From NCBI GenBank assembly GCA_947485165.1, contig CANKRG010000016.1, forward strand, positions 1 through 39,389: a DNA stretch of 39,389 bases, in the 5' to 3' direction. Below, in pieces: positions 1,006-36,788 of this stretch. This DNA comes from Comamonadaceae bacterium (GTDB lineage: Bacteria > Pseudomonadota > Gammaproteobacteria > Burkholderiales > Burkholderiaceae_C). How positions within the stretch are numbered: position 1 is the stretch's first letter; every line of letters begins with the position of its first letter. The notes below the pieces were generated by a model. That model worked only from the letters and a program-made list of their open reading frames with translations. It did no database searches and was not told the DNA's origin. Both the position numbers and the translations under genes were made by a program.

Positions 1006-1033
1006 AAATGCCTTTTTAGGGGTATAAATATGC

Positions 1034-1078
1034 CTCTAGCCAGCGTATTAATTGCTTAAGCCGCTACTAAATGTATAG
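1034..1078. repeat. 45 bp dispersed repeat, copy 1 (orientation B)
   Basis: Begins CTCTAGCCAGCGTATTAATT and ends with the half-palindrome CTACTAAATGTATAG. Orientation B means the GC-rich 'CTAGCCGGCGTATTTA' end comes first on the plus strand. It lies between plsY and a truncated acetyltransferase and may mark the break point of that gene. Confidence 0.8.
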
Positions 1079-1094
1079 TGAAAATGATTTCTAG

Positions 1095-5605: not shown

Positions 5606-5780
5606 GTCTTAGCTCCTAATAAGTCCAAATTGTTCTGGACTAGAAACTGAGGCCACCAGCGCACCATACGCAAATGTGTTTCAGTACAACTACAACGGCT
5701 ATCAGAAGACCGAAGCTGACCGAGGTTTGCAACGCTTGTGTAAAGGTGCTGTAACTGTTTGTGAAGAAAATGTGAGTTAA

Positions 5781-5826
5781 GCTATAAATAATATAGCGAA
5801 TTAGGGAATAAATACGCTGGCTACAG
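5781..5826. repeat. 46 bp dispersed repeat, copy 3 (orientation A)
   Basis: GCTATAAATAATATAGCGAA... to GCTGGCTACAG. It is the same length as the copy at 21121-21166 and differs from it at about ten positions. It lies between the start of the glycine-zipper gene and the end of ggt; the rest of 5606-5871 shows no gene. Confidence 0.85.
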
Positions 5827-5871
5827 CAAAAAAAGCCTTTAAATCAGCCTTATTCCCTTTGCAATCCCCTT

Positions 5872-7773
5872 TCAATCCCCCAAAACCACCCCTTCCCGCC
5901 GTGGATCCGCCCCGCCAAAGAAGCCGTCATAGGTCGCAGCGCCAGAAGAAGTCGTCCGCTCAATCGCTTGCAGCCCACTGGTCATATCGATTTCTCTGAT
6001 CTCGTGGCCTTTGGCTTTCAGGGCTTCGACGACTGCGGGTGGAAAGCGCTTGGCTTCCAGAATACTGGGGCCGTTGAGTGAGCCGAAGTTGGGCAGGTTG
6101 ATGGCTTCTTGTGCGTTCATGTCCCAATTTAGCGTGCCGATCAGCGTTTTCGCGGTGAAGTGAATGATGAGCGCACCGCCCGGGCTGCCGGCGCTCATGA
6201 TGACTTGGCCTGTGGTTTTGTCGATCACCAAGGTGGGGGACATGCTGGAGCGGGGGCGTTTGCCGGGTTGGACGCGGTTGGCGATGGGTTTGCCTGACGC
6301 GTCTGCAGCGGCGAAGCTGAAATCGGTCAGCTCGTTGTTGAGTAAAAATCCCCCTGCCATGGCGGGGCTAGGGGACACCATCTGCATAGACCCAAAAGCG
6401 CCCTCAATCGTCGTCGTCATCGCCAGCGCATTGCCCGACGCGTCGATGATGCTGATGTGCGATGTGCCGTATTCGGGCTGGTCGGGCATGGGTGCATATT
6501 TGAAATCTATGCGTGCATTTGCATTGTTTTTAATAGCATCATAGGGAAGTGGTATACCGGCTGAAGCGGTTTTCATGCTCACATTAGTGATCAATTTAGA
6601 GCGCTTCTCCAAGTAAACAGGGTTCAGCATCTGCGCCCAACTTCCCGCTGGCGGCTCAACAAAATCAGGGTCAGCCACGTACTGCGCACGGTCGGCAAAG
6701 GCAAGGCGGGAGGCTTCCAGGTACAAATGCAGCCACTCGGGGCTGAGAAATTCGTTAGGCGTGGGCGCTTTGGCTGACTCCAGCGGCAGCTGCGGGGCAA
6801 CCGTGTTGTTCAAAATGCCCAAAATTTGCCCAATCGCAATCGCCCCCGAGCTGGGCGGTGGCATGCCGCAAATTTGGTAGATTTCGGGCTCAACTTTGTA
6901 GTCAAAACACAGTGGCTCGCGCTTTTTTGGTGCGTAATTGGCTAGGTCTTGCAGGCTCAGTTGTCCTGCATTTGTGGGGTGATTCCGCACTTTGTTGACG
7001 ATGGCCTGTGCAAGTTCGCCCTCATGCAAGGCTTTTGCGCCTTTTGCCGCGATTTGACGCAACACGGCGGCGTAAGCCGGGTTTTTCAGCACATGCCCCA
7101 CGGGCCAAGCTGTACCTGTAGCATCGTAAAAATAAGCCGCTGCCACAGAGTCGTTTTTGAGGAATTTCTCAGCAGTTAAGAGTGTGTTCAATCGCGGGCT
7201 GACCTTGAAGCCGCCTTCCGCCAAAGCAATCGCCGGCAGAAACAGCGTCGCCCACGGCAGCTTGCCATGCTGCTTGTGCGCCATCTCCAGCATGCGCACC
7301 GTGCCCGGAACGCCAACGGGGCGACCACCGACGACAGCATCGCTAAACGCCATAGGTTTGCCGTCCGCGCCCATGAAAAGCGACTCGGTTGCCGCTGCGG
7401 GTGCGGTTTCGCGACCATCGAATGCTTCCATCTTGCCGTTCGGTTTGCCATCTTGGTGCAGCAAAAATGCCCCCCCGCCAATCCCGCTAGACTGCGGCTC
7501 CACCAGTCCCAGCACCATCTGCACCGCCACAGCCGCATCCACCGCGCTGCCGCCCGCTTTCAAAATCTGGTAGCCCGCATCGGTGGCAAGTGGATTCGCC
7601 GCAGCCACCGCAAACTTCTTAGTCGCCCAGCCGGGTTTTTCTGTGTAGCTAGAGGCTGCTTCGGGCAGGGTGGGAGCGGTGTAGGTGAATGGCGGAGCCG
7701 GTTGAGTTGCGCAGCCAGCGAGTAAGGATGCTGCAAAAGCCGCAACATAGCCAAGTTTAGTGAAATGCGTCAT
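5872..7773 (-). CDS. ggt: Gamma-glutamyltransferase, lipoprotein type
   Basis: An Ntn-hydrolase that removes or transfers the gamma-glutamyl group of glutathione in the periplasm. The 633-residue precursor starts with a lipoprotein signal peptide ending 'SLLAG-C21', so it should be lipid-anchored. The large-subunit motifs 'SSGIGGGAFLLHQDGK' and 'FDGRETAP' (binding the gamma-glutamyl carboxylate) are present. Thr437 in 'YGTSHISIIDASGNALAMT' is the expected self-cleavage site and nucleophile; 'MSPTLVIDKTTG' and 'GSPGGALII' (oxyanion region) follow. Residues ~403-418, about 20 before the cleavage site, are encoded by a 46 bp repeat copy and extend the tail of the large subunit. Another repeat copy sits 20 bp before the start codon. 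The gene seems to stand alone. Confidence 0.93.
   Translation of the reverse strand: MTHFTKLGYVAAFAASLLAGCATQPAPPFTYTAPTLPEAASSYTEKPGWATKKFAVAAANPLATDAGYQILKAGGSAVDAAVAVQMVLGLVEPQSSGIGGGAFLLHQDGKPNGKMEAFDGRETAPAAATESLFMGADGKPMAFSDAVVGGRPVGVPGTVRMLEMAHKQHGKLPWATLFLPAIALAEGGFKVSPRLNTLLTAEKFLKNDSVAAAYFYDATGTAWPVGHVLKNPAYAAVLRQIAAKGAKALHEGELAQAIVNKVRNHPTNAGQLSLQDLANYAPKKREPLCFDYKVEPEIYQICGMPPPSSGAIAIGQILGILNNTVAPQLPLESAKAPTPNEFLSPEWLHLYLEASRLAFADRAQYVADPDFVEPPAGSWAQMLNPVYLEKRSKLITNVSMKTASAGIPLPYDAIKNNANARIDFKYAPMPDQPEYGTSHISIIDASGNALAMTTTIEGAFGSMQMVSPSPAMAGGFLLNNELTDFSFAAADASGKPIANRVQPGKRPRSSMSPTLVIDKTTGQVIMSAGSPGGALIIHFTAKTLIGTLNWDMNAQEAINLPNFGSLNGPSILEAKRFPPAVVEALKAKGHEIREIDMTSGLQAIERTTSSGAATYDGFFGGADPRREGVVLGD
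6521..6566. repeat. 46 bp dispersed repeat inside ggt (orientation A on plus strand)
   Basis: GCATTGTTTTTAATAGCATC... to ATACCGGCTGAAG aligns without gaps to the 21121 copy. It encodes GGT residues ~403-418 (SAGIPLPYDAIKNNA region) with no stop codon. Confidence 0.7.
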
Positions 7774-7792
7774 TTTTACCCTTCAAATATGA

Positions 7793-7837
7793 CTCTAGAC
7801 GGCGTATTTATTGCCTAAGTCGCTATGAAATTTATAG
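7793..7837. repeat. 45 bp dispersed repeat in the ggt leader (orientation B)
   Basis: CTCTAGACGGCGTATTTATT...GAAATTTATAG. A well-preserved copy, 20 bp upstream of the ggt start codon, so it probably lies in the ggt 5' untranslated region or promoter. Confidence 0.85.
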
Positions 7838-7901
7838 TATTTTAGAGAATCTATTCTACCTGCAAGCCTGATGCTGGCATGGTATTTTTTCTTCTAGTAT
7901 G

Positions 7902-12139: not shown

Positions 12140-12196
12140 AGTTTCATCTTTAAATTTGCCATCAAAATAACAGTGAATTTAGGTAAAACAAACAAA

Positions 12197-12241
12197 CACT
12201 AGCAATTGTATTTGTTGCCTAAATAGCTATTAAATGTATAG
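12197..12241. repeat. 45 bp dispersed repeat (orientation B) after the patatin gene
   Basis: CACTAGCAATTGTATTTGTT...TATTAAATGTATAG, between the convergent ends of the patatin and phasin genes. Confidence 0.8.
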
Positions 12242-12256
12242 CAAAAAGACGTAAAA

Positions 12257-21095: not shown

Positions 21096-21120
21096 CCATC
21101 GATAAATTGATGTCGAATAG

Positions 21121-21166
21121 GCTATAAATTTAATAGCTACTTAAATAGTAAATACGCCGGCTATAG
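21121..21166. repeat. 46 bp dispersed repeat, reference copy (orientation A)
   Basis: Reads GCTATAAATTTAATAGC (a 17 bp near-palindrome), TACTTAAATAGTAAA, then TACGCCGGCTATAG. It ends 19 bp before the 2-hydroxyacid dehydrogenase start and lies in its 5' region. Confidence 0.85.
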
Positions 21167-21185
21167 TCATATATTAAAGATAAAA

Positions 21186-22151
21186 ATGAATAAATTGAAA
21201 ATACTTGTTACACGTGCCATCTTTCCTGAAATACTGGAAAAATTAGCGCAGTATTTTGATATTGAAGCCAACCAAGCAGACGACATTTGGACAAAATCTC
21301 AGCTGATTGAGAAGCTGCAAGGCAAAGTCGGCGCTTTCACGTTTGGCTTAGAGCGTATCGACGCTGAGCTGTTGGCCGTCTGTCCGCAGCTCAAAATTTG
21401 CGCCAACATGACGGTGGGTTACAACAATTTTGATTTGGCAGCGATGTCGGCGGCAGGTGTGGTCGGTACCAATGCCCCTGACACCTTGACTGAAACCACG
21501 GCTGATTTTGGCTTTGCGCTGCTGATGGCAACCGCTAGACGTGTGACTGAGAGCGAGCATTTCCTGCGCGCTGGCAAGTGGAAAAGCTGGCGGTTTGACA
21601 TGTTTGCCGGCAGCGAGGTGCATGGCAGCACGCTTGGCATCATCGGCATGGGAAAAATTGGCCAAGCAATTGCCAAACGCGGCGCGTTTGGCTTTGGCAT
21701 GAAAGTGATTTACAACAACCGTTCCCAGTTAGATACGGCGACAGAAGCCGCTTGCCAAGCCCGCTATGTCAGTAAAACCGAGCTCTTGCAAACGGCTGAC
21801 CACGTCATGCTGGTCGTGCCGTATTCTGCAGAGTCGCACCACACCATTGGCTCGGCTGAGCTGGCGCTGATGAAGCCAACGTCCCATTTGATCAATCTCG
21901 CGCGCGGTGGCATTGTGGACGATGCCGCTTTGGCGCTGGCGCTCAAAAACAAGCAAATCGCTGCGGCCGGCTTGGATGTGTTTGAAGGCGAGCCGTCTGT
22001 TCACCCTGATTTGCTCACCGTGCCGAATATCGTCCTCACCCCCCACATCGCCAGCAGCACCGTGCCCACGCGCATGGCGATGGCGAACAAGGCGGTGGAA
22101 AACTTGGTCGGTTATCTACGCAATGGCAAAGCCGTTTCACCACTCAATTAG
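21186..22151 (+). CDS. D-2-hydroxyacid dehydrogenase (glyoxylate/hydroxypyruvate reductase type)
   Basis: 321 residues of the D-isomer-specific 2-hydroxyacid dehydrogenase family. The nucleotide site is 'LGIIGMGKIGQAIAKRG' (residues ~147-163), followed by 'VIYNNRSQ', where Asn-Asn-Arg instead of Asp suggests NADPH. 'INLARGGIVDDAALALAL' holds the substrate Arg, 'AGLDVFEGEPSVHPDLL' the catalytic Glu and 'VLTPHIASST' the catalytic His. It resembles GhrB-like reductases that convert glyoxylate or hydroxypyruvate to glycolate or glycerate. A cytoplasmic dimer in known members. rmuC begins 68 bp downstream on the same strand. A copy of the 46 bp repeat lies in its leader. Confidence 0.9.
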   Translation: MNKLKILVTRAIFPEILEKLAQYFDIEANQADDIWTKSQLIEKLQGKVGAFTFGLERIDAELLAVCPQLKICANMTVGYNNFDLAAMSAAGVVGTNAPDTLTETTADFGFALLMATARRVTESEHFLRAGKWKSWRFDMFAGSEVHGSTLGIIGMGKIGQAIAKRGAFGFGMKVIYNNRSQLDTATEAACQARYVSKTELLQTADHVMLVVPYSAESHHTIGSAELALMKPTSHLINLARGGIVDDAALALALKNKQIAAAGLDVFEGEPSVHPDLLTVPNIVLTPHIASSTVPTRMAMANKAVENLVGYLRNGKAVSPLN

Positions 22152-25275: not shown

Positions 25276-26505
25276 TTAGCTGTTTTTCTCTGTAAAAGAG
25301 ATCAGGTTTGTAGCCAAATCAGCCTGCAGACGCAGTTTGTTGCTTAAATTTTCAGCACTTTGCGCCCAAATCGGCAGGTCAAGTTGCGGAAAACGGGGTA
25401 AATAAGGGGCAGCTTGGCGCTCTGCCGCCGATGCATTCCAAGCAATATGTGCCGTCTTGAGCGACGCGGGCGCCTCCATCATCGCCAAAAACGCGTCCAA
25501 CTTGGCATGGTGCGCACCGTCATGCTGTGGGTAAATCTGCCAAATAAACGGCTTCGCAGCCCAAATAGCGCGAACCAGTGAATCTTCACCCCGCACGAAA
25601 TTCAAATCGCAGCTCCACAGCAGGTGGTCATAATGGGTTTGGGTGAGTTGAGGTAGATATACAATTGATAGCACCTTGGGCAATAAATACGCCGTCTTGA
25701 GTCGTTTTTTTCCTTTTATAATGGCTTTAACAGCGTTTGTAGCGCGTCCTGCTGTGACGAGCAGGCAAGTGGGGGTTTGACTGGCGGCGAGTTGGTCAAT
25801 CAAAACTTCTAGCGCGGCGGGTTCATAGCAAAAGAGGGAAATCAATTGTGAACTTGAAAGCCTTGATTTAATTAATTCAACGCGAGAGTGATCACTAACT
25901 TCAAACGGCAAACCCGCTAGCCAAGTTGTCTTATCAAATGCTTTTTTCCGCTCAAACAAATCCGCTTCCCGCAGCAAGCCACCCGTCCGCTGGTTAAACC
26001 CCGGGTAAAAATAGCGCTGTATCCAGCCCAGCGCTGCACCGCTGTGGTGCACGTAGGGGAGGGTGTGGGCGCGCTCGGCGAACGATTCCGCCGTCAAATA
26101 CTCCAAGTTCAGCCAAACGGGTCTTTTTCCTGGTGAGGGCTCTAAAATAGTGTCATTTATGCCACTAGCCTGTGTATTTATCGCCTTAGCTGCTATTAAA
26201 TTAATAGCAAATTCAGAATCGAAAGTGTCTAATAGGACGTCACCAAGGTCAAGGTTGGTATCTTTTGGGATACCATTTTTGCAGTTGATGACTTCCACAT
26301 TCGCGAAACCACCAGGCGCCATCCAAGCCAGCGACGACACATCATCCACCCACAGTCGCACAACTTTCCCCCGAGCCGCCAAGTTACAAGCCAGCCGCCA
26401 GCAAACCCCAATATCGCCAAAGTTATCGACGACATTGCAGAAGATATCCCATTTTGATTTAGGAGAAGGGGACGAAGGAGCGGATTCCATGGCTAGATTG
26501 TCCAC
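25276..26505 (-). CDS. earP: EF-P arginine rhamnosyltransferase EarP
   Basis: Transfers rhamnose from dTDP-rhamnose to the loop arginine of EF-P. The 409 residues show a GT-B-type inverting enzyme: catalytic/binding Asp27 and Asp31 in '[16 protein letters not shown]', '[13 protein letters not shown]', and Glu307 in '[19 protein letters not shown]' with '[19 protein letters not shown]'. EarP proteins are normally about 375-385 residues; two stretches explain the excess: residues 100-115 ('[15 protein letters not shown]' region) and 269-284 ('[13 protein letters not shown]' region), each encoded by one copy of the 45-46 bp repeat in opposite directions. GTG 26505 has GAAGG upstream and is chosen over ATG 26490. 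Its start is 24 bp from the divergent uvrC start. Confidence 0.93.
25656..25701. repeat. 46 bp dispersed repeat inside earP, copy 1 (orientation A)
   Basis: GATATACAATTGATAGCACC...AATAAATACGCCGTCTTGAG aligns gap-free to the 21121 copy. It encodes EarP residues 269-284, where most EarP proteins seem to run directly from the preceding strand into 'LPxLTQxxYDxLLW'. Confidence 0.8.
26163..26207. repeat. 45 bp dispersed repeat inside earP, copy 2 (orientation B)
   Basis: CACTAGCCTGTGTATTTATC...CTATTAAATTAATAG is a well-kept copy. It encodes EarP residues 100-115, just before the conserved '[13 protein letters not shown]'. Confidence 0.85.
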
Positions 26506-26529: not shown

Positions 26530-28596
26530 ATGCCAGACTTGCCACCTCAATTACCGCCAAATATCGACGAAATAACCGGTTTGCCCATCGCCGCCAAGTC
26601 GCATTCTGACGCGCTGTTGGCCGAAGTGGCGGCTTTGTCGGCGTTGCCTGGGGTTTATCGGTATTTTGATGCAAACGGGGATTTGCTCTATGTGGGCAAG
26701 GCGATCAACCTGAAGCGGCGCGTTTCCAGCTATTTCCAAAAAGACCACGGCGGTACGCGCACGGGGCACATGGTTGGCAAAATTGTGCGGATGGAGACGA
26801 CGGTGGTGCGCTCTGAGGCAGAGGCGCTGCTGTTGGAAAACAACCTGATCAAAACGCTGAGCCCGAAGTACAACATCTTGTTTCGGGACGACAAGAGCTA
26901 CCCGTATTTGAAGATTACCAACCAAGCCTTCCCCAGAATGGCTTACTACCGTGGCGCGGTGGATAAAAAGCACAGTTACTTTGGCCCGTACCCCAACGGC
27001 TGGGCGGTGAAAGAGTCTATTTTGTTGCTGCAAAAAGTGTTCATGCTGCGCACGTGTGAAGATTCGGTGTTTGGGAACCGCACACGGCCTTGTTTGCTGT
27101 ATCAAATCAAGCGCTGCTCAGGTCCCTGCGTGCCAAGTTTGACCAAAATCACGCCGGAAGCTTATGGCCAAGACGTGAAGCATGCCGAGCAGTTTTTGCG
27201 GGGTGAAACGCAGGTGGTGCTGCAAACGCTGGAGGCGCAGATGATGGCGTGCTCAGAGCAGCTGGCGTTTGAAATGGCGGCGGCGCTGCGCGACCGGATT
27301 GCGGCGCTGTCGAACATCTTGCACCAGCAGGCCGTCGAGACCACGGGGTCGGACAAAGACGTGGATATTTTGGCGGTGAAAGTGCAGGGCGGCAAAGCCT
27401 GCGTGAACCTGGCGATGGTGCGCGGGGGACGGCATTTGGGCGATAGGCAGTATTTTCCGGTGCATGTGGAAGATGCGATGAGTATGAACATGGTGGAATC
27501 CAAGTCCGTTCGCCCTGAGCCTGTCGAAGGGTTGGGTGAAGAAGACTTCGACAAGCTCAGTCCGAACGGTAGTGGGAGCAGTCCGAAAGGTAGGGAAATA
27601 CCCGTCGAGGTGCTGGTTTTAGAGGCGTTCATCGCTCAGCACTACATCCACGTGCCGATTCCGGCGGCGCTGATTACCAGTGTGGCGGTTGACAAAGGTT
27701 TGATCAAAGCGGTGTCTGAACAGGCTGGCTTTAAGGTTACTGCGGTGCACAACCCACGCGAGCAGCGGCGTATTTGGCTGGAAATGGCGCAAAACAACGC
27801 CAATATCCAACTGGCGCGGTTGTTGAGCGAAGAAGGCTCGCAGCAGGCACGGACGCGTATGTTGGTGGCTGCGTTGGAGCTGGTGACAGATGATATGGAT
27901 GCGCTGCGGATTGAGTGTTTTGACATTTCCCACACCGCAGGCGAAGCCACGCAGGCGTCGTGCGTGGTTTTCCACCACCACAAAATGCAAAGCGCGGAAT
28001 ACCGCCGCTACAACATCGACGGCATCACCGGCGGGGACGATTACGCCGCCATGCGGCAGGTGCTGGAGCGGCGCTATAGCAAAATCGTCGAAGCGGACAA
28101 AGAGGCTGTGAAAGCTGCTGCGGAAACGGGTGCAGAACCCAAGTCACTGATGCCGCAGGTGGTGCTGATTGACGGTGGCAAAGGCCAAATCAGCACGGCG
28201 CGGGAGGTGTTTGTGAAGCTGGGACTGGATGTGGCGCTGTTGGTCGGTGTTGAAAAAGGCGAAGGCCGCAAAGTGGGCTTGGAGGAATTGGTGTTTGCCG
28301 ATGGGCGGGAGAAAGTCTATTTGGGCAAAGATTCCAGCGCGTTGATGCTGGTCGCGCAAATCCGAGATGAGGCGCACCGCTTCGCTATCACCGGCATGCG
28401 TGCCAAGCGCGCGAAAGTACGGGTGGGCGGCAGCAAAATTGAGGATATTCCCGGTATTGGCCCCAAGCGCCGCGCCAAGCTGTTGCAGCGCTTTGGCGGT
28501 ATTCGTGGTGTTGCTATGGCGAGTGCGGAGGACATTGCGACGGTGGAGGGTGTGTCTAAAGAGCTGGCGGAGACGATTTATCGGGCACTGCACTGA
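26530..28596 (+). CDS. uvrC: Excinuclease ABC subunit C
   Basis: Makes the dual incision in nucleotide excision repair after UvrA/UvrB damage recognition. Domains in order: GIY-YIG nuclease ('LPGVYRYFD...LLYVGKA', residues ~36-130), Cys-containing region ('[17 protein letters not shown]'), UVR/UvrB-binding helix pair (~205-250), RNase H-like nuclease ('[19 protein letters not shown]' and '[14 protein letters not shown]') and C-terminal helix-hairpin-helix pair ('[16 protein letters not shown]'). At 688 residues it is long compared with about 610 in E. coli. Residues ~326-347 are encoded by a 64 bp palindromic repeat lying between the UVR and RNase H-like domains. The start codon lies 24 bp from earP and has no clear ribosome binding site. 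Confidence 0.95.
27506..27569. repeat. Palindromic REP-type repeat embedded in uvrC
   Basis: Arms CCGTTCGCCCTGAGCCTG... (27506-27529) and its complement (27546-27569) pair at 21 of 24 positions around a 16 nt loop. The 'TTCGCCCTGAGCCTGTCGAAG' core is common between genes of many proteobacteria, split here as GTTCGCCCTGAG and CCTGTCGAAG. It encodes the peptide VRPEPVEG... in frame; a partial third arm follows at 27579-27590. Confidence 0.9.
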
Positions 28597-35200: not shown

Positions 35201-35809
35201 TTGTTTGACGAAGTGTCGCGTGAAATCCGACAGTTTGTGAAACGCAAGATTGATGATTTGATTGATTCGCGCGAACCCCAATTGTTAGCCGGCATCGTCA
35301 GTGATTTTCGCGTCATCAATGGTCAGCGTGGCAAGATTGGTTTGTTCAAGCTAGACGACACCAGTGGTCAAATCGAAACGACGGTGGATGATGCCACGAT
35401 GCAGGCGAACCGCAATTTGTTCAAAGAAGACGAGTTGATCATCGTCATGGGCGTGATTCAAGCCGATCGATTCTCTGGCGGTAGCCCACGACTCAAAATC
35501 AACCAAGTGTGGGATTTACCAACAGCGCGTTGCCGCTTCGGCAAACATTTGAAAGTCGATATTGGCGATAAAACACCGGATATCAGCCGCCTGCTGCGCG
35601 AATTTCCGCCCATCAAAGTTCAAACCGAGCAGGGTGATTTGCAGCGCGGCATGGCGGTGCGGATGGCCGTTGCCCGATCAGCTGATTTAGGCGTGGTGAA
35701 TGCTGAAATTCAGCTGGGCGATGACGCTAAGTTTTACCCGAGTGATGCTGCGTTGGCCAGTTGGATGGCGCAATCTGGCATCTCTAAAACACATATTGTT
35801 TATGAGTAA
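32261..35809 (+). CDS. dnaE: DNA polymerase III alpha subunit
   Basis: The replicative polymerase's catalytic subunit, 1182 residues (E. coli DnaE is 1160). Domains in order: PHP domain (residues 1-~275, 'FVHLRQHTEFSVVDGTNRIP', 'ALAITDLNNLFGTVKFYKA'), palm with catalytic Asp405 and Asp407 in 'MPDFDIDFCQANRD' and 'GRGSGAGSLVAYAL', the middle/finger part with 'ALNALYRPGPMDLIPSFVAR', 'YQEQVMQTAQILGGYSLGGAD' and 'GYGFNKSHAAAYSLLAYHTA', then helix-hairpin-helix and OB-fold region ('LLAGIVSDFRVINGQRGKIG'). It synthesises both DNA strands with the beta clamp and epsilon exonuclease. The start ATG 32261 fits the family exactly. It converges on tolA, 46 bp apart, with a repeat copy between. Confidence 0.97.
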   Translation: MFVHLRQHTEFSVVDGTNRIPDVVQAAATDQQPALAITDLNNLFGTVKFYKAARKSGVKPLIGAEIFLEGLSQDATALSRMLVLVQNNQGYLNLSELLTRAWTQNIVKAQAVCKLAWLAELNAGLIVLSGAQAGAVGQTLLQGDLQRAGEIAMQLATMFPHRFYMEVQRAGRVDDEQHVAAAVQLAARLKLPVVATHPVQFTDIDGYEAHEARVCISDGEILGNQRRVRKFTREQYFKSSAQMQSLFVDLPSALTNTLEIAKRCNLTLVLGKPQLPVFPTPNVNGQQLSPEEYFRYSCQEGLDVRLKHLYPDEAVREAKKPTYLARLEFEIGTILKMGFPGYFLIVGDFINWAKNNGCPVGPGRGSGAGSLVAYALKITDLDPLQYNLLFERFLNPERVSMPDFDIDFCQANRDRVIDYVKLKYGREAVSQIVTFGTMAARAAVRDVGRVLDMSYTFCDGISKLIPNKPGVSVTLQLPPPGRAKDDKMVYATEAEPILAERERNEDEVKTLLELARKLEGMTRNVGMHAGGVLIAPGKLTDFCPLYQQPGSDSAVSQFDKNDVEDIGLVKFDFLGLATLTILELAREFISKGHAGQENFAYENLPLDDARVYKLFTEGKTEAVFQFESRGMQGMLKDAKPTRLEDLIALNALYRPGPMDLIPSFVARKHGREVVEYPHPMVAEMLSETYGIMVYQEQVMQTAQILGGYSLGGADMLRRAMGKKDADEMARHRQIFREGASKNAIDEAKADEIFDLMEKFAGYGFNKSHAAAYSLLAYHTAWIKVHYTAEFFCANMTIEMGDTDKLKILYEDAQRTILGKPGITFEPPDVNRGVYRFEPVSATVIRYGLGAIKGTGQQAVEAIIAARESGGLFTSLFDFCVRVERSKINKRTVEALIKAGAFDTLQQNRAAMLDSVELAFDFASAAEANANQGGLFDMMGGDDAAHGSSTQEPELSDATPWGVKERLTLEKTAMGFYFSGHLFDEVSREIRQFVKRKIDDLIDSREPQLLAGIVSDFRVINGQRGKIGLFKLDDTSGQIETTVDDATMQANRNLFKEDELIIVMGVIQADRFSGGSPRLKINQVWDLPTARCRFGKHLKVDIGDKTPDISRLLREFPPIKVQTEQGDLQRGMAVRMAVARSADLGVVNAEIQLGDDAKFYPSDAALASWMAQSGISKTHIVYE

Positions 35810-35816
35810 AATGGAC

Positions 35817-35861
35817 AGATAGTCGGCGTATTTATTGCCTAAGGCGCTATTGAATTTATAG
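35817..35861. repeat. 45 bp dispersed repeat at the tolA stop codon (orientation B)
   Basis: AGATAGTCGGCGTATTTATT...CTATTGAATTTATAG. Its last six bases overlap the end of tolA and supply the tolA TAA stop. Confidence 0.88.
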
Positions 35862-36788
35862 TAAGTCTTTGGGTTTGAAATACATCTCAATCGGTGATGG
35901 AACGCGTCCATCCGTATCTTTAGGCAATATTTCCGTCTTGTCTAAAGCGCGTAAGACGGCGTCATCCCAAGCTTTGTTGCCACTTGATTTGATGATTTTT
36001 CGTCCCGTAATTGTTCCATCTGGCGAGGTTCGAACCTCCACGCCAGCCTCAATATTGCCGGAAACCTCAGCCGTAAACACGATGTTGGGCTTGACCCTTG
36101 CGCTTACTCGTCCTGCGTAGCCCGCAGACGGCCCAGTGGATTGTTTTGCGGTGCCTGTGGCCGCTTCCCCGCCAGTTGCACCAGCTAAGCCAGCAATGCG
36201 CTTTAAATTCACATCTCGTGCAGCTTTTAATGAGGCTTCGTATTTGGCATCAGCAGCTTTTTTCACTTCAAGTTTTTTAGCCTCTAAAGCACGCTTTTTC
36301 TTGTCCATGGCTTCCAACCTAGCTTCTTCCGCCGCTTCCTCTTCAGCTTCTTTCTTTGCTAGTGCTTTGGCTTTTACTTTGATTTCTTCGGCTTTTATCT
36401 TCTCTAATTTCTTCTTTTCTTCTTTTTTCGCTTTTTCTATCGCTATCTGCGGGTCAATTTTGGGCTCTGATTCCGGTTCAACCACTTTTGCGGGTTTTGG
36501 TGGCGGGGGAGGTGGTTCCACTTTGGGCCCAGGCTTGGGTTCAATTTTCGGCTCCGGTTCCGGTTTAGGCTCAGACGTAGGCTCAACCAAAGCCGGCGCG
36601 GCTTGTTGCACGGTGGTTGACCACAGCTCAGCCTGCACGGGTGCGTTGGTAGATTCGTGTTTCCAGCTGACGCCCCAAGTGAGGGCGGCTATTAAAAACG
36701 CATGCGCCAAAACGGCCAAGCCAATAGCACGCCCGCGACCAGAAGTCGAAGGTGGTGTGAATTCGGGGCGATCAGAGGCTAATGACAT
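35856..36788 (-). CDS. tolA: Cell envelope integrity protein TolA
   Basis: 310 residues: one N-terminal inner-membrane helix (~22-42, 'AIGLAVLAHAFLIAALTWGV') with the TolQ/R-binding start, a Pro/Glu/Lys linker (~60-105, PKPEPEPKIEPKPG and a Pro run), a long charged Lys/Glu/Ala helix (~110-195), and the C-terminal TolA domain ('GYAGRVSARVKPNIVF', 'VEVRTSPDGTITGRKIIKSS', 'DGRVPSPIEMYFKPKD') that contacts TolB/Pal. TolA carries proton-driven force from TolQR to the outer membrane during division. It is the last gene of tolQRA; tolB and pal do not follow. The stop codon and last two residues lie in a 45 bp repeat copy. Confidence 0.92.
   Translation of the reverse strand: MSLASDRPEFTPPSTSGRGRAIGLAVLAHAFLIAALTWGVSWKHESTNAPVQAELWSTTVQQAAPALVEPTSEPKPEPEPKIEPKPGPKVEPPPPPPKPAKVVEPESEPKIDPQIAIEKAKKEEKKKLEKIKAEEIKVKAKALAKKEAEEEAAEEARLEAMDKKKRALEAKKLEVKKAADAKYEASLKAARDVNLKRIAGLAGATGGEAATGTAKQSTGPSAGYAGRVSARVKPNIVFTAEVSGNIEAGVEVRTSPDGTITGRKIIKSSGNKAWDDAVLRALDKTEILPKDTDGRVPSPIEMYFKPKDLL

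Follow-up and report, generated by a model that had tools for sequence, protein, structure and literature searches.

The earP gene in the window, i.e. the whole stretch of 39,389 nucleotides that was analysed from a Comamonadaceae bacterium, carries two copies of a repeat of ~70 nt in opposite directions. Across many genera the repeat stands in EarP in a fixed register and orientation, at the second of its two sites without a gain in length, and it resembles the gene at the level of the DNA. With a probability of slightly above one half we take the EarP copies to be ancient orthologous copies of a Comamonadaceae-wide REP-like repeat, which would have been laid over coding sequence by replacement and kept near the current repeat of the genome.

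Two copies of the repeat are read in frame in earP

The gene for the EF-P arginine rhamnosyltransferase EarP extends from position 25276 to 26505 on the minus strand, starts with GTG and encodes 409 aa. The protein scored 355.8 bits with PF10093 (E 3.7e-106, cut-off 25 bits) and 365.4 bits with TIGR03837 (cut-off 347.05 bits). The repeat was searched with the model R1, which has 79 columns and was made from 38 repeat copies outside earP. At E < 1e-10 R1 detected eight copies in the window, two of them inside earP. Site 1 at 26143-26214 on the plus strand corresponds to residues ~98-121 (54.7 bits, E 1.2e-15), site 2 at 25656-25722 on the minus strand to residues ~262-284 (48.8 bits, E 8.6e-14). 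Neither score was reached by any of 300 synonymous shuffles. Both copies are read in frame and yield two unrelated peptides in EarP, and the sequence-only reading was correct in these points.

The other six copies lie between ORFs. For those at 1012-1086 (plus strand, 61.3 bits), 5776-5844 (minus strand, 51.7 bits) and 21115-21187 (minus strand, 55.6 bits) this was taken from the ORF table. At 7772-7845 (plus strand, 71.1 bits) and 12190-12246 (plus strand, 39.4 bits) synteny showed that genomes G001 and G003 have a copy there too. The same was true for the copy at 35796-35867 (plus strand, 58.7 bits), which according to the ORF table is located between convergent ORFs and overlaps their ends by ~12-14 bases.

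The conserved positions of the repeat span ~65-70 nt. Its 18-base core had 241 matches with up to three mismatches in the 2.2 Mb genome versus a single match for the reversed control. Of 72 copies sampled in the genus outside earP, 62 were outside any ORF of at least 150 aa and hence not necessarily intergenic; in this sample at least two of the window's copies were counted twice. The repeat is REP-like in its high copy number and mainly intergenic location.

The gene uvrC (26530-28596) contains a different element that is likewise read in frame. It occupies positions 27504-27571, encodes SVRPEPVEG...FDKLSPNG and consists of two nearly inverted arms; we take the peptide to be known from many other proteobacterial proteins. 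Site 2 in the EarP of locus L049, from the repeat-poor genome G032 of the same family, contains CTGAGCTTGTCGAAG, which resembles part of this second element. Thus one EarP stretch may have received two repeat families.

Fold and catalytic residues of EarP

The structure predicted for EarP with a 44-row alignment as input had a pLDDT of 89.9. Compared with P. aeruginosa EarP (6j7k) the model had a Z-score of 40.9 and an rmsd of 2.3 with 347 aligned residues in a re-examination of Foldseek's own match list, which indicates that the predicted fold is the same despite both repeat copies. Asp27, Asp31 and Glu307, presumably the catalytic residues of EarP, were invariant across 44 EarP sequences, in agreement with the earlier statement that they are retained.

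In the model site 1 forms a helix (residues 98-113) and a subsequent low-confidence loop, and site 2 comprises the end of a helix (254-269), a loop and a strand (279-283). The earlier expectation of surface loops fits the end of site 1 only; otherwise both sites are predicted to be largely helix or strand.

Length of the two sites

We compared 127 EarP genes, i.e. that of the window, 46 from related genomes whose loci were fetched and 80 from named loci, with at least three genes duplicated. Site 1 of the window's EarP has 33 residues between Cys and Trp anchors. In the 13 fetched EarPs of other families this stretch was 18 residues long in 11 cases, 22 in one and 25 in one, the latter two being outgroup genes among five ORFs that lacked a start motif and were left untrimmed. 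In Comamonadaceae 22 residues were the commonest value, and three congeners had 30, 30 and 34. Site 2 of the window's EarP has 44 residues, compared with 39-44 in the 13 EarPs of other families, and it aligns with P. aeruginosa EarP without a gap. In repeat-poor members of the family site 2 ranged from 30 to 69 residues, so its length is held loosely. Taken together these lengths place the excess of the window's EarP mostly at site 1.

According to the sequence-only reading the repeat had been inserted twice, each time adding ~15 residues. For site 1 the figure agrees with the difference of 15 residues to 11 of the 13 EarPs of other families, while at site 2 the alignments show native sequence of equal length in other EarPs and thus no insert. 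Furthermore, neither copy is a private insertion because the repeat stands in the same register in all three congeners and in many further genera of the Comamonadaceae. Lineage-specific in-frame insertion of a mobile repeat is therefore a very unlikely origin of the two copies: equal-length alignments refute it for site 2, and the register common to the genera refutes a private event at site 1. The high copy number of the repeat, the greater length of site 1 and true in-frame insertions in the EarP of L067, in UvrC and in the second copy of an AMP-ligase (see below) speak for it.

Two side observations concern site 1. The EarP of L067 (G022) has a separate true insertion of ~22 repeat residues after a native helix that was kept, and that of L131 (Rhodoferax) has a tandem duplication of DLGSCQ after the repeat.

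Likeness at the DNA level

Synonymous codons were shuffled within the gene, 300 times each, in 19 hand-picked earP genes of the 127; the matrices used for scoring contained no earP, rarA or coaBC copy. Fifteen of the genes came from repeat-bearing genomes, including the named loci L112, L118, L123 and L131, which were classed by the copies in their own locus. The observed score was never reached at 29 of the 30 sites of these genes; the exception was site 1 of L131 with 4 of 300 shuffles. In the four other genes with eight sites the score was reached by none of 300 shuffles at site 2 of L133, by one at site 2 of L031, by four at site 2 of L132 and by 68 to 299 at the rest. Site 2 of L132 and L133, both from Variovorax, reads as a decaying relic of the repeat. 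L031 is an EarP of another family.

The third-position match was 11-34% in repeat-poor versus 54-79% in repeat-rich genomes, the window's genus being compared with its own consensus and the others with the family consensus. The repeat likeness of the earP stretches lies at the DNA level, beyond the protein level. That chance or a shared protein constraint makes EarP codons resemble the repeat has next to no probability: it is refuted by the shuffles, and the third-position matches contradict it as well. In its favor are some native residues that fit the repeat's reading and the result for L031.

Distribution of the repeat in the family

A family model of 69 columns was built from 37 copies, all of them repeats outside earP in other genera. 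At E <= 0.01 it matched 19 of the 60 related genomes, and every one of the 19 belongs to the family of the window. Seventeen of the 19, including the window's genome, were repeat-rich, i.e. had at least 15 matches, and the other two had one match each. Matches were scored among up to 84 candidates per genome with the family model and up to 78 with the own-genus model, such that all match counts are lower bounds. The family model also detected the form of the window's genus; four genomes had between at least 23 and at least 61 matches each. Conversely, the own-genus model matched 14 of the 60 whole genomes, ten of which belong to other genera and all of which are repeat-rich; G012 had at least 76, G022 at least 24 and G005 at least 15. 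Thus the genus versions of the repeat, or dialects, are not sharply separate. Among the 80 named loci the own-genus profile gave three matches in nhmmer at E 0.01, none of them beyond its own genus.

In the 127 EarP genes matches of at least 10 bits with the own-genus and family models had the same orientation at site 1 (30 of 30) and the opposite orientation at site 2 (29 of 29), with no such match elsewhere in the genes. The outgroup EarP L039 reached 11 bits elsewhere in the gene with two genus-specific models. Site 2 was 44 aa long in 25 of the 29 matching EarPs and 40, 47, 47 and 52 aa in the others. Of the 34 family genomes with a fetched EarP, 14 of 17 repeat-rich versus none of 17 repeat-poor genomes had the repeat in EarP (Fisher p 1e-6, ignoring kinship); the repeat-rich genomes G006, G015 and G023 had no EarP match of 10 bits. 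A tree of 30 genomes based on three proteins grouped the repeat-rich ones in a single clade, which also contained the repeat-poor G004, G019, G021, G025, G027 and G028. The first five of these had no EarP copies, and the EarP of G028 was outside the sample. Nodes that place G021 and G025 were weak (0.12 and 0.21).

Outside the genus the core hairpin of the repeat covaries, with 22 cells changed on both sides versus 12.8 after shuffling (0 of 500 shuffles). For the own-genus repeat no hairpin was supported with the pairing that was tried, nor was a conserved RNA fold. Among the G018 matches listed, no skew of orientation with the replication arm was apparent by eye, from which we draw no conclusion. 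The same genome has four near-tandem copies within ~600 bp inside a long, possibly spurious ORF (L195:17376-19448).

The repeat in other genes

All repeat matches of rarA are in one register, and so are those of coaBC. In a length survey with a profile that may contain rarA and coaBC copies, 13 of 14 repeat-rich genomes had a rarA stretch of 44 aa; that of G001 was 49 aa long, and in 11 others it had 44-45 aa. The coaBC stretch was 39 aa long in each of the 14 repeat-rich genomes. Anchor motifs for the shuffle test were found in 25 of 30 rarA and 27 of 30 coaBC loci. In repeat-rich genomes the score was never reached in 11 of 14 for rarA and 9 of 14 for coaBC, again with one register per gene, as opposed to 1 of 11 and 0 of 13 in repeat-poor or outgroup genomes. 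CoaBC of G018 and ProS of G003 aligned gapless through the repeat copies with solved homologs, which for ProRS and CoaBC we take to be those from P. aeruginosa and E. coli. The rarA of L239, from G028, which retains a single repeat match, contains a possible relic of the repeat, whose score was reached by none of 300 shuffles.

Ten own-genus matches within ORFs provided the ProS case and an AMP-ligase of G003 (L192:2076-3959), which carries two copies in opposite directions, one without insertion and the second inserted with ~28 extra residues. Linker or terminal cases among the ten were dnaX, dnaG, sucB, TetR, SLT and an FAD protein. In UvrC of L108, L112 and L131, judged against the window's UvrC alone, the repeat is inserted after the same motif YPYLK; the proteins of L108 and L112 are ~35 residues longer than that of the window.

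These cases bear on a second account, in which the repeat was inserted in an ancestor of the Comamonadaceae, native sequence of similar length was then trimmed under structural constraint, and the copies descended vertically with the differences of the window's genus due to drift and AT bias. We consider this account rather unlikely. It would require near-exact restoration of length separately in earP site 2, rarA, coaBC and proS, with flanking motifs that still align, and it does not readily account for the own-genus core CGTATTTATTGCCTAAG, which G003 has at site 2 of earP. In its support, the accessible text of PMC3733652 and PMC10969869 treats intragenic REPs and RPEs as insertions, insertion units occur in the EarP of L067, UvrC, the AMP-ligase and an intergenic place of G003, and site 1 had a net gain. 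The insertions and the length of site 1 relative to most other families count at the same time against overwriting, as do the variable length of site 2 in repeat-poor members of the family, the blurred borders between the dialects, the three repeat-rich genomes without an EarP match of 10 bits, the shuffle result for site 2 of L031 and the lack of a near-identical donor (see below).

Stable places and candidate agents of copying

When flanks of the copies were compared among G000 to G003 with both directions counted, a copy was present in 52 of 55 comparisons. The three comparisons without a copy comprised an absent unit of ~115 bp, a decayed copy in place and a weak match of 17 bits. The ~115 bp unit is intergenic, present in G003 and absent in G001.

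Copies that mostly keep their places across the species of the genus could reflect selection for a function of the DNA at fixed chromosomal places, e.g. as sites of an architectural protein, with sites having followed a changed protein preference in the genus. The occurrence of copies in both orientations, the restriction of EarP copies to genomes that keep repeats and the covarying hairpin outside the genus agree with this possibility, which we regard as unlikely. It does not fit well with the patchy presence of the repeat within genes among genera and the lack of a supported own-genus hairpin with the pairing tried. We know of no protein that would bind the repeat as an architectural site.

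A RAYT-like gene has repeat copies on either side in G000 and G001 and on one side in G003 and G013 (19 neighbourhoods scanned). The two copies next to the genes of G000 and G001 have the same direction. The RAYT-like protein of G000 scored 70.4 bits with NF047646, below the cut-off of 80. Y1 transposase genes were rejected as a cause. They occur in 28 of 36 genomes, mostly one in each, repeat-poor genomes included, and thus do not account for which genomes hold repeats. A recent donor copy was likewise rejected for site 1, as no genome match of at least 45 bases exceeded 87%; shorter matches were closer, up to 100% over 23 bases. For site 2 the donor comparison was made with sampled copies. 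No recent copying is seen given that a near-identical donor was not found.

Copies in genes of the window's genus lean to its own repeat version

The match of the gene-borne copies to the two consensus sequences was compared between groups of genes, which were picked by hand after the repeat result was known; genes that lacked an anchor were dropped, leaving 9 of 11 repeat-poor genes at site 1 and 4 of 11 at site 2. Copies of the window's genus matched their own consensus to 78% at earP site 1, 69% at site 2, 69% in rarA and 64% in coaBC, and the family consensus to 61, 54, 59 and 55%, respectively. For the other repeat-rich genera the corresponding values were 63, 59, 61 and 62% with the family consensus and 54, 46, 43 and 53% with the consensus of the window's genus. 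By raw matrix score, with matrices of unequal length, the own model was better in 8 of 8 cases for earP, 3 of 4 for rarA and 1 of 4 for coaBC of the genus. Thus the own dialect is the better fit to coaBC when match fractions are compared; with raw scores this holds in one of four genomes. Part of the match to the own dialect can stem from AT bias as the genus is lower in GC. In all, these comparisons lean toward gene-borne copies in the window's genus following the genus' own version of the repeat.

At EarP site 2 CTATCAATT was present in 16 of the 28 other Comamonadaceae shown and in all four EarPs of the genus, yet among the 81 other repeat matches of the genus, which include some double counts, it occurred just once. 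This distribution suggests that this arm of site 2 is old and vertical and that the core is of the new kind.

A possible course of events

The pattern as a whole suggests overwriting. According to the reading that we prefer, the repeat would have replaced native coding sequence in place in an ancestor and would not have been spliced in. As long as a genome keeps repeats its copies may be held near the current consensus by concerted evolution, and in this way both EarP copies would have come to carry the AT-rich core of the window's genus. The protein would tolerate this since the repeat reads as an alpha helix at site 1 and as helix end, loop and beta strand at site 2, which fits the EarP fold. 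In lineages that lose the repeats the copies would decay by substitution. Candidate agents of the copying are the RAYT-like transposase encoded beside copies in the genus, gene conversion among copies or a drive like that of DNA uptake sequences.

A bolder version can be put forward tentatively, with the odds clearly against it. A motif of 65-70 nt with genus dialects might overwrite conserved genes base by base and without insertion by a genome-wide drive, i.e. biased recombination or copying of single strands made by RAYT, such that EarP, RarA and CoaBC are rewritten when the dialect changes. If so, protein sequence would be led by a DNA motif, be it selfish or functional, and the process would be the long-motif equivalent of the drive that has been proposed for DNA uptake sequences.

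The repeat stands in a fixed register in conserved enzymes, mostly at unchanged length, and encodes helix and strand segments of the fold. The repeat family may thus be able to rewrite conserved proteins and not only to insert into them. If the rewriting is real, some protein differences between genera would be driven by a DNA repeat and not by protein function. Furthermore, the question of how REP populations stay uniform would become testable at marked places in coding genes.

Comparison with known systems

Searches that covered few subscription papers found no literature on an insertion in EarP rhamnosyltransferase, on an 'intergenic repeat' in Comamonadaceae or on REP, protein-coding, gene conversion and concerted evolution in combination. 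Among the matches listed, none of the REPIN literature that names Polaromonas, Acidovorax or Rhodoferax was on this repeat by title, and a search joining RAYT, REP and Comamonadaceae yielded nothing on RAYT in Comamonadaceae except chance words. The following comparisons draw on the accessible parts of the papers cited.

RAYT genes are flanked by inverted REPs (PMC2817692), and REPs of SBW25 are nearly all extragenic, with 14 of the 1,067 most abundant 16-mers overlapping genes (PMC3116915); REPIN populations have been described as well (PMC8049555). The repeat of the Comamonadaceae resembles these REP/REPIN-RAYT systems in having short copies by the hundred, for the most part outside long ORFs, in the covarying hairpin outside the genus and in the RAYT-like gene adjoining copies (PMC2817692, PMC3116915, PMC8049555). 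It differs in its length of ~65-70 nt and in an own-genus form without a supported hairpin. The copies beside the RAYT-like genes of G000 and G001 have the same direction, and Y1 genes are found in repeat-poor genomes too. Moreover, several intragenic copies are in a fixed register without a change in length.

GTAG/CGTC REPs are read in frame inside conserved genes, many of them DNA-repair genes; in two Xanthomonas species they occupy nearly the same position in recB (PMC3733652). They share in-frame repeats within conserved genes with the system studied here; yet in the accessible text they are described as insertions, and the following of a genus-specific consensus seen here is not found there (PMC3733652). 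Polaromonas, Acidovorax, Rhodoferax, Delftia and words with Comamona- do not appear in the accessible main text of that paper.

Rickettsia palindromic elements (RPE) are insertions of ~150 bp in frame in many unrelated genes and are alike in that repeat DNA is read in frame in unrelated genes (PMC10969869). In contrast, the present repeat has ~70 nt and is found without insertion at earP site 2 and in coaBC, proS and most rarA. The lengthening of the host protein known from RPEs was accordingly absent at earP site 2, in coaBC, in proS and in 13 of 14 rarA, present in UvrC and the L067 EarP, and partial at earP site 1.

DNA uptake sequences (DUS/USS) arise in coding sequence by point changes and not by insertion and have clade dialects, as described in the available portions of PMC1939737 and PMC3630211. 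The repeat is similar to them in being a motif in coding sequence without indels at earP site 2 and in rarA, coaBC and proS, although other copies of it are insertions. Uptake sequences have ~9-12 nt compared with ~65-70 nt here, and the likeness is drawn from the pattern of sequences. Taken together, intragenic REP-like repeats are already known; the unusual features of this family are that copies at several places are neutral in length, share a register between genera and lean to the repeat of the genus.
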